From an uncultured Roseovarius sp. (lineage in GTDB: Bacteria > Pseudomonadota > Alphaproteobacteria > Rhodobacterales > Rhodobacteraceae), in assembly GCA_947497295.1 (NCBI GenBank), contig CANMFU010000002.1, forward strand, positions 186,001 to 250,000: a stretch of 64,000 nt of DNA, written 5' to 3'. Within the stretch, counting starts at the first letter, position 1. Every line of letters begins with the position of its first letter. A program made the position numbers and the translations under genes. Shown here one piece after another: positions 4,226 to 7,372 of this stretch. Under the pieces are notes generated by a model. That model had not been told where the DNA came from. It searched no databases and saw nothing but the letters and a program-made list of their open reading frames with translations.

Positions 4226-5389
4226 ATGACCCATGCGCCCCAGCAACGCCCCACCGCCTGCCTTGCGCTGGCCGATGGTACGCTGATCTATGGACGCGGT
4301 TTTGGCGCAACCGGTGTCGTGGTCGCTGAGCTTTGCTTTAACACAGCGATGACCGGCTATCAGGAAATCATGACCGACCCCAGCTATGCGGGCCAGGTTG
4401 TGACCTTTACGTTCCCGCATATCGGCAACACCGGGACCTGCCCTGAGGATGACGAATCCGCTGACCCCGTCGCCGCCGGCATGGTGGTCAAATGGGACCC
4501 GACCGAGCCGAGCAGCTGGCGCAACACGCAGCACCTGCACGACTGGCTGGCCCAGCGCGGGCGCATCGCCATTGGCGGCGTCGATACCCGCCGTCTGACC
4601 CGTGCGATTCGCCAGCAGGGCGCACCACATGTCGCGCTGGCGCATGACCCAGATGGCAATTTTGACACCGAGGCGCTGATCGCCCAAGCGCGCGGATTTG
4701 CCGGGCTTGAGGGGCTGGATCTGGCCAAGGATGTCACTTGCGCGCAATCCTACCGCTGGGACGAAATGCTCTGGGCCTGGCCAGACGGTTATCCGCGCCA
4801 AACCGACCCCAAGCACAAGGTTGTCGCGATTGATTACGGCGCGAAGCGTAACATCCTGCGCTGCCTTGCCTCGACGGGTTGCGACATCACCGTTTTGCCG
4901 GCCACCGCAACGGCAGAAGAAGTGCTGGCACACAAGCCTGACGGTGTATTCCTGTCGAATGGCCCGGGTGATCCGGCGGCTACGGGCGTCTATGCCGTGC
5001 CGGTGATCAAGGATCTGCTGGCCGCTGAATTGCCGATTTTCGGCATCTGCCTGGGCCATCAAATGCTGGCACTGGCGCTGGGCGCCAAGACGGTCAAGAT
5101 GGGTCACGGCCACCACGGCGCCAACCATCCGGTCAAGGATTACACCACCGGCAAGGTCGAGATCACCTCGATGAACCATGGCTTTGCCGTAGATGGCCAA
5201 AGCCTGCCCGAAGGGGTGAGCGAGACGCATGTTTCGCTGTTCGATGGGTCAAATTGCGGCATCGCGCTTGAGAATCGGCCGGTCTTTTCTGTGCAGCACC
5301 ACCCCGAGGCCAGCCCGGGACCGCAAGACAGCTTTTACCTTTTCGAGCGTTTTGCAGCCTCAATGGCCCGAAAAGAAACAGTTTCCTGA
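4226..5389 (+). CDS. carA: Carbamoyl-phosphate synthase small subunit
   Basis: CarA is the glutaminase subunit of carbamoyl-phosphate synthase. It feeds ammonia to CarB for arginine and pyrimidine synthesis. The 387-residue chain has the N-terminal CPSase_sm domain (about 1-150) and a class-I amidotransferase domain with the nucleophile in GICLGHQMLA (Cys about 274) and the His-Glu pair in QHHPEASPGP near the C-terminus. Length is normal. GGAGAG precedes the ATG. carB is not next to it, which is usual in this group where carA and carB are often apart. The next gene is unrelated. Confidence 0.95.
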   Translation: MTHAPQQRPTACLALADGTLIYGRGFGATGVVVAELCFNTAMTGYQEIMTDPSYAGQVVTFTFPHIGNTGTCPEDDESADPVAAGMVVKWDPTEPSSWRNTQHLHDWLAQRGRIAIGGVDTRRLTRAIRQQGAPHVALAHDPDGNFDTEALIAQARGFAGLEGLDLAKDVTCAQSYRWDEMLWAWPDGYPRQTDPKHKVVAIDYGAKRNILRCLASTGCDITVLPATATAEEVLAHKPDGVFLSNGPGDPAATGVYAVPVIKDLLAAELPIFGICLGHQMLALALGAKTVKMGHGHHGANHPVKDYTTGKVEITSMNHGFAVDGQSLPEGVSETHVSLFDGSNCGIALENRPVFSVQHHPEASPGPQDSFYLFERFAASMARKETVS

Positions 5390-5407
5390 TCGTGGTTTAA
5401 GGAAATC

Positions 5408-5423
5408 TTTACCTTCCGTTAAC
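5408..5423 (+). promoter_or_regulatory. CtrA-like binding box upstream of the MshEN glycosyltransferase
   Basis: The 16 bases read TTTACC-TTCCG-TTAAC. They match the alphaproteobacterial CtrA recognition sequence TTAACC-N5-TTAAC in all specified positions but one. The box lies 48 bases upstream of the glycosyltransferase ATG and 19 bases after the carA stop, where a promoter would be expected. No CtrA gene is in the window, so regulation is inferred. Confidence 0.4.
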
Positions 5424-5470: not shown

Positions 5471-7372
5471 ATGGGCATCTCAGAGCTGCGGCAGCTGGAC
5501 ACACAGTCCTGGCATAGCGTTCGCCGTCAGGGCGCCGTAGCGCAGGGCGATGATCTGTGTGACCTTGGCCGCTATCTGGTGCGGACCGGGGCGATTTCAC
5601 GCTCTGACGCAGAGCTGGCCCTGATCGTTCAAGCCAATTGCGATGCGCCGCTCGACCGAGTGCTGCTGGCCGAGGGGCTGGTGGACGCGCCGGACATTCA
5701 GCGCGCTCAGGCCCGACGCGCGAATTTGCGCCTGGCCACGTCCGAAGAATTGGCAGGCGGCGCAGAAGTCCCGGAGGGGATGGACGCGCGCGATATGATC
5801 AAGGCTAATTTTGCACCGCTGCGGGGCGCGGATGGCCAGCTACGACTGGCCGTGGACAATCCGGACACTGCCGCTGATCCATATCTGCCCGCCAGCCTGC
5901 AAGCGCTGCCGCGCATTATTGCGCCGCGCCGGGATATTCAGCAGGCGGTGGCGCAAAGCGCCCGCAGCCGTCTCACGGTCGATGCCCAATCACGCACCCT
6001 TGCCGAAGAAAGCTGCCGCACTTGGGGCAGTTCTCCTATGCGGCGCATTGTCGTGGCGCTAGTGGTGATCGCCGCCTGCATCGCGCTGACCGTTCTGTTT
6101 CCCGTGACGATCTTTGGCATCTTCGTCGGCTGGGCCACGTTGACGCTGATCGTCTCGGCGGTGCTGAAAATGGCAGCAGTCTGCGCGCGGGTCGCTTTGG
6201 GGCCACCCGAGACCGTGCAACCACCGATGCCGGTGGGGTCCAAACTGCCCAAAGTGTCAGTGCTCGTGCCGCTGTTCCGCGAGACCGAGATTGCCCACGC
6301 GCTGATTACCCGCCTGACGCGGCTGACCTACCCCAAATGTCTGCTGGATGTCATTCTGGTGCTGGAGGAAAAGGACGACACCACCCGCCAGACGCTGGCC
6401 CAGATCGATCTGCCGCCGTGGATGCGCGCCGTCATCGTGCCCGATGGCCAGCCGCGCACCAAACCGCGCGCGATGAACTATGCACTGGATTTTTGTGAGG
6501 GCGACATCGTCGGAATTTTCGATGCCGAAGATGCGCCGGACCCGGATCAGATCACACAGATCGCCCGCCGGTTTCAATTCGCGCCGCCCGATGTGGCCTG
6601 CCTTCAGGGCATACTCGACTATTACAACCCGCGCCAGAACTGGCTGGCGCGCTGTTTCACCATCGAATACGCGACGTGGTTCCGCGTAATGCTGCCCGGC
6701 CTTGCGCGGCTGGGCTTTGCCATCCCGCTAGGCGGCACGACCCTGTATTTTCGGCGCGATGTGCTGGAATCCCTGGGCGGCTGGGACGCCCATAACGTGA
6801 CCGAGGACGCAGATCTGGGGTTTCGCATGGCGCGTCACGGCTATCGCACCGAGGTGATTGGCACCGTCACCGGGGAGGAGGCCAATTGCCGTGCATGGCC
6901 TTGGGTCAAACAACGCTCGCGCTGGCTGAAGGGCTATATGACGACCTATCTGGTGCATATGCGCCGACCGATCAGGCTGTATCGCCAGCTGGGTGCGTGG
7001 CGGTTTTGCGGGTTTCAGGCCCATTTCGTGACGGCGCTGTCCCAATTTTTGCTGGCGCCGTTTTTATGGTCCTTCTGGCCGGTGCTGCTGGGCCTGCCGC
7101 ATCCGCTGGATGGCGTGCTGCCACGCACCGATTTACTACGGTTCGGCCAACTTTTCTTGACGATCGAAGTATTGAATATCGGTTTTTACATGTTGGGAGT
7201 GTCGGGCCGCCAGCACCGGCATCTGCTGCTATGGACACCGACAATGCATCTCTACACGCCGCTGGGCACCATCGCGGCGATCAAGGCCATTTACGAAATG
7301 ATCGTCGCGCCGTTCTATTGGGACAAGACGACCCACGGACTTTCGCTGAGTGCTCAGACAAAAGAGGGCTAG
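5471..7372 (+). CDS. Family-2 glycosyltransferase with N-terminal MshEN-like domain
   Basis: This 633-residue membrane protein has three parts. Residues 31-83 form two 24-residue motifs separated by exactly five residues, the layout of the MshEN domain first defined in the MshE ATPase, where it binds cyclic di-GMP. A first membrane pair lies at about 192-235. A GT-A catalytic domain follows with FDAEDAPDPD (sugar-nucleotide and metal binding), TEDADLG (base) and QRSRW near residue 487, the processive-synthase signature. C-terminal membrane segments complete it. It probably polymerises or exports a polysaccharide at the inner membrane; the sugar is unknown. A GGAAGG site precedes the ATG, and a CtrA-like box lies upstream. 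The first MshEN motif is well kept; the second lacks the conserved Gly3 and Gln24. Confidence 0.8.
   Translation: MGISELRQLDTQSWHSVRRQGAVAQGDDLCDLGRYLVRTGAISRSDAELALIVQANCDAPLDRVLLAEGLVDAPDIQRAQARRANLRLATSEELAGGAEVPEGMDARDMIKANFAPLRGADGQLRLAVDNPDTAADPYLPASLQALPRIIAPRRDIQQAVAQSARSRLTVDAQSRTLAEESCRTWGSSPMRRIVVALVVIAACIALTVLFPVTIFGIFVGWATLTLIVSAVLKMAAVCARVALGPPETVQPPMPVGSKLPKVSVLVPLFRETEIAHALITRLTRLTYPKCLLDVILVLEEKDDTTRQTLAQIDLPPWMRAVIVPDGQPRTKPRAMNYALDFCEGDIVGIFDAEDAPDPDQITQIARRFQFAPPDVACLQGILDYYNPRQNWLARCFTIEYATWFRVMLPGLARLGFAIPLGGTTLYFRRDVLESLGGWDAHNVTEDADLGFRMARHGYRTEVIGTVTGEEANCRAWPWVKQRSRWLKGYMTTYLVHMRRPIRLYRQLGAWRFCGFQAHFVTALSQFLLAPFLWSFWPVLLGLPHPLDGVLPRTDLLRFGQLFLTIEVLNIGFYMLGVSGRQHRHLLLWTPTMHLYTPLGTIAAIKAIYEMIVAPFYWDKTTHGLSLSAQTKEG

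Follow-up and report, generated by a model that had tools for sequence, protein, structure and literature searches.

We have analysed a gene for a processive glycosyltransferase of family 2 (GT2) in a 64,000-nt stretch of DNA from an uncultured Roseovarius sp. (assembly GCA_947497295.1, contig CANMFU010000002.1, positions 186,001 to 250,000 of the forward strand; this whole stretch is called the window below). The protein carries an N-terminal module of the MshEN type, and an earlier sequence-only reading had proposed that this module switches polysaccharide synthesis directly in response to cyclic di-GMP (c-di-GMP). We observed that the layout and predicted fold of the module are those of MshEN, and that most of its ligand-contact residues are changed. 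The interpretation that we prefer, with moderate confidence, is that a once-complete MshEN switch has been eroded in the Roseovarius synthase, whose control would now lie mainly at the gene level, through CtrA.

The proposal has the following parts. Where family members have complete motifs, as in Ruegeria, each 24-residue motif would grip one guanine of c-di-GMP, and the signal would be passed via the MshEN_C subdomain and a segment beside the first membrane helix to switch the synthase, by analogy with NfrB of Escherichia coli. The Roseovarius clade, window copy included, retains the four-helix scaffold and the two turn glycines; the second guanine site appears mostly gone and the first damaged, which makes a remnant or scaffold, with canonical c-di-GMP sensing lost, the most likely status of the module. 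Control of the synthase would then act mainly through its gene, most likely by way of CtrA.

The synthase and its MshEN module

Residues 260-487 of the window protein match GT2 families (Pfam Glyco_tranf_2_3, E 1.6e-28), and the full-length AlphaFold2 model (mean predicted local distance difference test score 87.2, predicted template modelling score 0.88; the fold models here are predictions) contains membrane helices and has cellulose, hyaluronan and chitin synthases as its best fold matches. The DxD, TED and QxxRW sequences that are the signatures of processive glycosyltransferases (PMC8669469) are all present together with the membrane helices. The gene product is probably a membrane-embedded processive GT2 enzyme that would make a polysaccharide. 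Analysis A4 drew on 37 of 69 usable named fragments and analysis A5 on 64 of 91 proteins.

The two 24-residue motifs with five residues between them occur at residues 31-54 and 60-83, exactly as the sequence-only reading had described. In the N-terminal fragment model, model residues 8-142 (residues 30-164 of the window protein) align with 5htl_B, the MshE structure, and both the MshEN_N four-helix bundle and the MshEN_C alpha/beta fold are present in the predicted structure. Fold, profiles and orthologs thus support an MshEN-type domain at the head of a processive GT2 enzyme. Its sequence is degenerate, and the domain scores below the curated cut-offs, with 18.8 versus 23.1 bits for PF05157 (matched at residues 97-167) and 23.4 versus 38 bits for NF053729.

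In MshE of Vibrio cholerae, the ligand contacts in each motif are made by the six residues Arg1, Leu2, Gly3, Leu17, Leu21 and Gln24 (PMC5013675). Leu2 of one motif packs against Leu17 and Leu21 of the other; the guanine edge is bound through the amides of Gly3 and the residue after it, and ribose and phosphate through Gln24. This set is not kept in the window protein. Motif I retains Leu2, Gly3, Leu21 and Gln24 and is altered at Arg1 and Leu17 (R9D and L25A on MshE numbering); motif II is altered at Arg1, Gly3, Leu17, Leu21 and Gln24 (R38P, G40D, the conservative L54I, L58Q and Q61R). The retention in the first motif and the missing Gly3 and Gln24 of the second (now Asp62 and Arg83) had been read correctly from the sequence; with 7 of the 12 contacts changed, the loss of ligand-contact residues that the same reading had named as evidence against its switch is largely found at sequence level. 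The published relaxed pattern fits neither window motif: position 1 deviates in motif I and positions 3 and 21 in motif II.

These changes resemble those in proteins that do not respond to c-di-GMP, and we therefore regard loss or strong weakening of binding by the window copy as likely. The G40I substitution in MshE abolished the c-di-GMP response, which L25A alone left in place (PMC5013675). In the N-terminal domain of XpsE, which has lost binding, G40, L54, L58 and Q61 are also changed, among others (same source), and the non-binding GSPII-A domain of Thermus PilF has H33 in motif I and S39, A41, I55, I59 and R62 in motif II (PMC12002112). Both share with the window protein the MshEN fold and an eroded motif II, and differ from it in residing on secretion or pilus ATPases. 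A direct c-di-GMP switch, as first proposed, is plausible where orthologs have their motifs complete, two from Ruegeria and the protein P0083 being examples, and not well supported for the window copy, in which the mechanism is unlikely to operate unchanged.

Domain states in the Roseovarius clade and the wider family

With residues 1-200 as query (E up to 1e-3) we obtained 71 homologs, mostly from Roseovarius where the source was named; relatives without the domain would have been missed by this query. Among the 70 that align ungapped, the turn glycine is retained in 70/70 in each motif, and both Gly3 residues are retained in 0/70, as are both Gln24 residues.

The wider comparison used 149 genomes, taken as Rhodobacteraceae because the named close relatives are Roseovarius, Ruegeria and their kin. 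A synthase match was found in 138 of them, two being weak (G017, 2.8e-9, and G119, 7.0e-7) and possibly other GT2 enzymes. One locus per genome was taken from 130 of the 138; G015, G017, G022, G068, G091, G119, G122 and G147, with fragments or weak matches, were left out, G122 still counting as gene-positive from its fragment. Two loci of fewer than 520 residues (L015 and L111) were excluded from protein counts and included in upstream counts. Start codons were picked by rule, and motifs were sought in frames extended from the preceding stop. On this basis the motif region was detected in 96 of 130 loci and undetected in 34, the two fragments being among the latter; rule-chosen starts gave 93 versus 37, with L043, L094 and L132 recovered in the longer frames. 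By eye, the motifs in L054, L073, L079, L091 and L099 look strongly diverged rather than missing, and several of the 34 keep an MshEN_C-like stretch and the SCR segment (see below) with the four-helix part lost or replaced.

Of the 96 detected regions, 94 align ungapped: 53 have both Gly3 residues, 46 both Gln24 residues and 42 all four. NF053729 scores exceed the cut-off of 38 bits for two Ruegeria orthologs (54.5 and 49.3 bits) and P0083 (57.0 bits). In a tree of the GT core from 128 orthologs and six clade proteins the states are interspersed, three states requiring 27 changes and intact versus the rest 16, with Gly/Gln-intact copies on several outer branches. This pattern fits an intact ancestor with repeated erosion, although our trees are quick and weakly supported and this one is unrooted, so that gain and loss look alike. 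Outside the family the gene is patchy, with a match (E up to 1e-60) in 25 of 240 genomes of the class, three of which belong to the window's own family and include the window's own genome.

The upstream region: carA linkage and CtrA-like boxes

Upstream of the synthase gene lies a gene presumed, from its protein, to be carA. In 126 of 130 loci a CarA match precedes the synthase gene on the same strand. Eight genomes with carA and no synthase gene show no synthase match within 1.5 kb after carA; in L135, carA is followed directly by the counterpart of the gene downstream of the window synthase (by eye, one for a GntR-type regulator).

Between carA and the synthase gene the window contains two overlapping sites, TTAAGGAAATCTTTAC and TTTACCTTCCGTTAAC, each one mismatch from TTAA-N7-TTAAC. 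Within 150 nt upstream of the chosen start, on either strand, a perfect TTAA-N7-TTAAC occurs in 96 of 130 loci and a one-mismatch version in 20 more, compared with 0 perfect and 8 one-mismatch boxes in 650 shuffles that preserve base composition only. The boxes are specific to the N7 spacer, which accounts for 96 loci; no other spacer length between 0 and 15 gave more than 6. Of the 95 sites on the plus strand, 80 start 51-80 nt ahead of the chosen start. A count that is independent of start choice, taken over the 200 nt that follow the carA stop codon, gave a perfect box in 92 of 126 loci. The stricter TTAAC-N5-GTTAAC, quoted in PMC7232146, is perfect in 33 of 130. Since spacing-specific boxes stand upstream of most orthologs and similar sites are present in the window, the synthase gene is likely to be a CtrA target.

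Co-occurrence with GGDEF proteins

The gene is missing from 8 of 8 genomes that lack GGDEF matches and from 3 of the 141 others (Fisher p 3.3e-11, genomes taken as independent; 5/141 and p 2.6e-10 if G017 and G119 are counted as absent). CarA matches are weak in G115 and G146, two of the three exceptions, and in G102, one of the eight, so that incomplete assembly may explain these genomes. L136 (G001), with GGDEF, FliG, ChpT and carA matches and no synthase match, is the one clean exception. In a quickly built CarA tree, 3-4 changes suffice for the absences, which amount to 1-4 independent pairs; with so few, the association is not established after phylogenetic correction. Some of the genomes without the gene, which stand on very long branches, may never have possessed it. 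That the gene merely tracks flagella was rejected: in the 16 FliG-less genomes it is present in 9/9 with GGDEF and 0/7 without, and in G090 FliG is present with GGDEF and the gene both absent.

What this association means bears on two of the alternatives. The first, which has a real though lesser chance of being correct, is that it reflects joint loss of a CtrA-controlled package and not binding of c-di-GMP by the synthase. ChpT (PF10090) is unmatched in 12 genomes, among them all eight GGDEF-less ones, which makes CtrA and c-di-GMP inseparable as the cause; CtrA-like boxes stand in the promoters of most loci, and the synthase persists in the 34 loci with no detected motif. Package loss does not account for the 42 domains in which all four Gly3 and Gln24 residues are retained. 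It is compatible with the eroded switch that we prefer, and the probabilities we attach to the two overlap.

The second alternative, which we consider unlikely, is that the module has kept its binding of c-di-GMP, if perhaps weak or confined to one half-site, and still switches the synthase. The four contacts retained in motif I, the match to MshE in fold, the 6 GGDEF matches in the window's genome and the GGDEF association, including that within the FliG-less genomes, speak for it. It has to contend with a second guanine site devoid of Gly3, Leu21 and Gln24, with the non-binding proteins that carry comparable changes, and with an association that stems from few independent losses coinciding with the absence of ChpT.

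Relation to known systems

The sequence-only reading implied that MshEN on a GT2 enzyme was new. Control of such an enzyme by c-di-GMP is already known from NfrB (NF008411), for which binding and control have been demonstrated (PMC8669469 and PMC8669472), and Wang et al. in 2016 mentioned glycosyltransferase fusions (PMC5013675). According to those reports, NfrB shares with the window protein a processive GT2 and an MshEN on one chain, with DxD, TED and QxxRW. The order is reversed, GT2 being N-terminal and MshEN C-terminal in NfrB, and the MshEN of NfrB is reported to be fully conserved. The nfrB gene is accompanied by those for NfrA and YbcH, neither of which we noticed beside the window gene, where neighbouring open reading frames were viewed by eye only. 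The window protein scores 18.8 bits against NF008411, whose cut-off is 1170. MshE itself shares the predicted fold, the 24-5-24 layout and MshEN_C, and is an ATPase rather than a GT2. BcsA cellulose synthase shares the GT2 core fold and motifs and is c-di-GMP-controlled, through a C-terminal PilZ domain (PMC5567048); the window protein gave no PilZ match in the Pfam search. BgsA of Sinorhizobium meliloti, an alphaproteobacterial synthase under direct c-di-GMP control, binds through a C-terminal tail (same source).

In the literature searched, mostly without subscription papers, we found no description of the N-terminal MshEN, the setting of carA and CtrA boxes, or the erosion series, and nothing on this enzyme among work on CtrA-regulated glycosyltransferases or MshEN in these bacteria. 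A paper on the gene transfer agent tailspike (PMC13420450), consulted for clues to the identity of the polysaccharide, contains neither "glycosyltransferase" nor "polysaccharide synth".

Other features of the synthase

Directly before the first membrane helix lies the conserved segment ESCRTW, a possible coupling element; between residues 91 and 280, 121 of 128 orthologs contain a match to the loose pattern S[CSA]R, and 111 have SCR. By eye, SCR persists even in orthologs that lack the four-helix part. At the extreme N-terminus, MGISELR (residues 1-8; 5471-5494) is near-invariant in the Roseovarius clade, M1, I3, S4, L6 and R7 being found in 32/32; the stretch that follows is variable, with residues 12-26 modelled at low confidence. 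Leu-Arg is mildly enriched close to the N-terminus (30/128 orthologs), an observation that we set aside because the start-choice rule partly favours it. Second, more distant synthase copies with 35-36% identity, aligned from residue 23-33 on, occur in three genomes.

Table 1. Coordinates of the synthase gene, its motifs and neighbouring features (window positions except for the last row)
Feature	Position	Strand	Residues and remarks	Basis
Processive GT2 glycosyltransferase gene with N-terminal MshEN-type module	5471..7372	+	633 aa	Pfam GT2, predicted fold, motif signatures
MshEN motif I	5561..5632	+	31-54; Arg1 to Asp31, Leu17 to Ala47, remaining contact positions kept	
Five-residue linker ANCDA	5633..5647	+	55-59; contains Cys57 (5639-5641)	
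MshEN motif II	5648..5719	+	60-83; Arg1 to Pro60, Gly3 to Asp62, Leu17 to Ile76, Leu21 to Gln80, Gln24 to Arg83	
MshEN_C alpha/beta subdomain	5732..5965	+	about 88-165 (borders approximate)	PF05157 (match below cut-off) and model
ESCRTW segment	6008..6025	+	180-185	Ortholog conservation
GT2 DAED (DxD-type) motif	6521..6532	+	351-354	Sequence
GT2 TED motif	6800..6808	+	444-446	Sequence
GT2 QxxRW motif (QRSRW)	6911..6925	+	481-485	Sequence
carA (presumed), upstream neighbour	4226..5389	+	Outside the mechanism	Conserved linkage
Two overlapping CtrA-box-like sites	5397..5423	+	TTAAGGAAATCTTTAC (5397-5412), TTTACCTTCCGTTAAC (5408-5423)	Sequence
Second synthase copies in other genomes	G107:C17:78880-80715; G088:C3:534240-536042; G013:C1:714521-716326			

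Discussion

Several observations weigh against an eroded switch. The domain is retained in all 71 homologs of residues 1-200, with the limit on the query given above, and such retention, together with a Cys57 that is invariant in the clade, exceeds the needs of a free remnant. Residue lists are also poor predictors of binding: c-di-GMP continued to stabilise MshE that carried L10A or L25A (PMC5013675), phage infection was unaffected by most of the single substitutions made in NfrB (PMC8669472), and restoring the consensus in PilF GSPII-A did not alone regain binding (PMC12002112); Pro at position 1 is permitted in the published relaxed motif. The complete ancestor stands on weak ground, because only 17 of 130 orthologs match the full relaxed pattern in both motifs with the linker; 24 further orthologs carry it without the standard linker, twice in one and once in 23, and the tree is unrooted. 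That gene presence tracks GGDEF fits a continued dependence on c-di-GMP, although the GGDEF-less genomes are also without ChpT, the marker of the CtrA phosphorelay. Finally, GGDEF counts showed no difference among genomes with intact (42), eroded (54) and undetected (32) domains (Kruskal p 0.57), and the uncorrected domain states likewise gave no difference (p 0.60).

The invariant linker cysteine raises a further alternative, which we think improbable: re-purposing of the module within the Roseovarius clade, with its old pocket or linker now binding another ligand or a protein. Cys57 is present in 70/70 ungapped clade proteins at a position that is variable in the wider ortholog set, and a possible analogue exists in the PilB N-domain of Xanthomonas citri, which binds a PilZ protein although it lacks c-di-GMP motifs. 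Yet one cysteine makes no metal site, conservation among such closely related sequences may be purely structural, and by eye no partner gene is evident next to the synthase, in neighbours that were not run through family searches. An extension of this idea is doubtful to a similar degree. Here a core, carA-linked and CtrA-controlled synthase of the Rhodobacteraceae would once have been a direct c-di-GMP receptor and would have repeatedly lost or exchanged its ligand, the Roseovarius scaffold taking a different input via the linker cysteine. Were this so, one family would present all stages of a c-di-GMP switch: intact, re-purposed and deleted.

For annotation, the eroded switch that we prefer carries a warning, in that a 24-5-24 layout is by itself no proof of c-di-GMP binding. 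With MshEN domains that are complete, eroded or undetected on one and the same enzyme, the family offers natural material for defining the residues needed in binding and in coupling. In these bacteria CtrA and c-di-GMP control motility, gene transfer agents and differentiation; if our reading of the family is correct, a conserved surface-polymer synthase would join the two.
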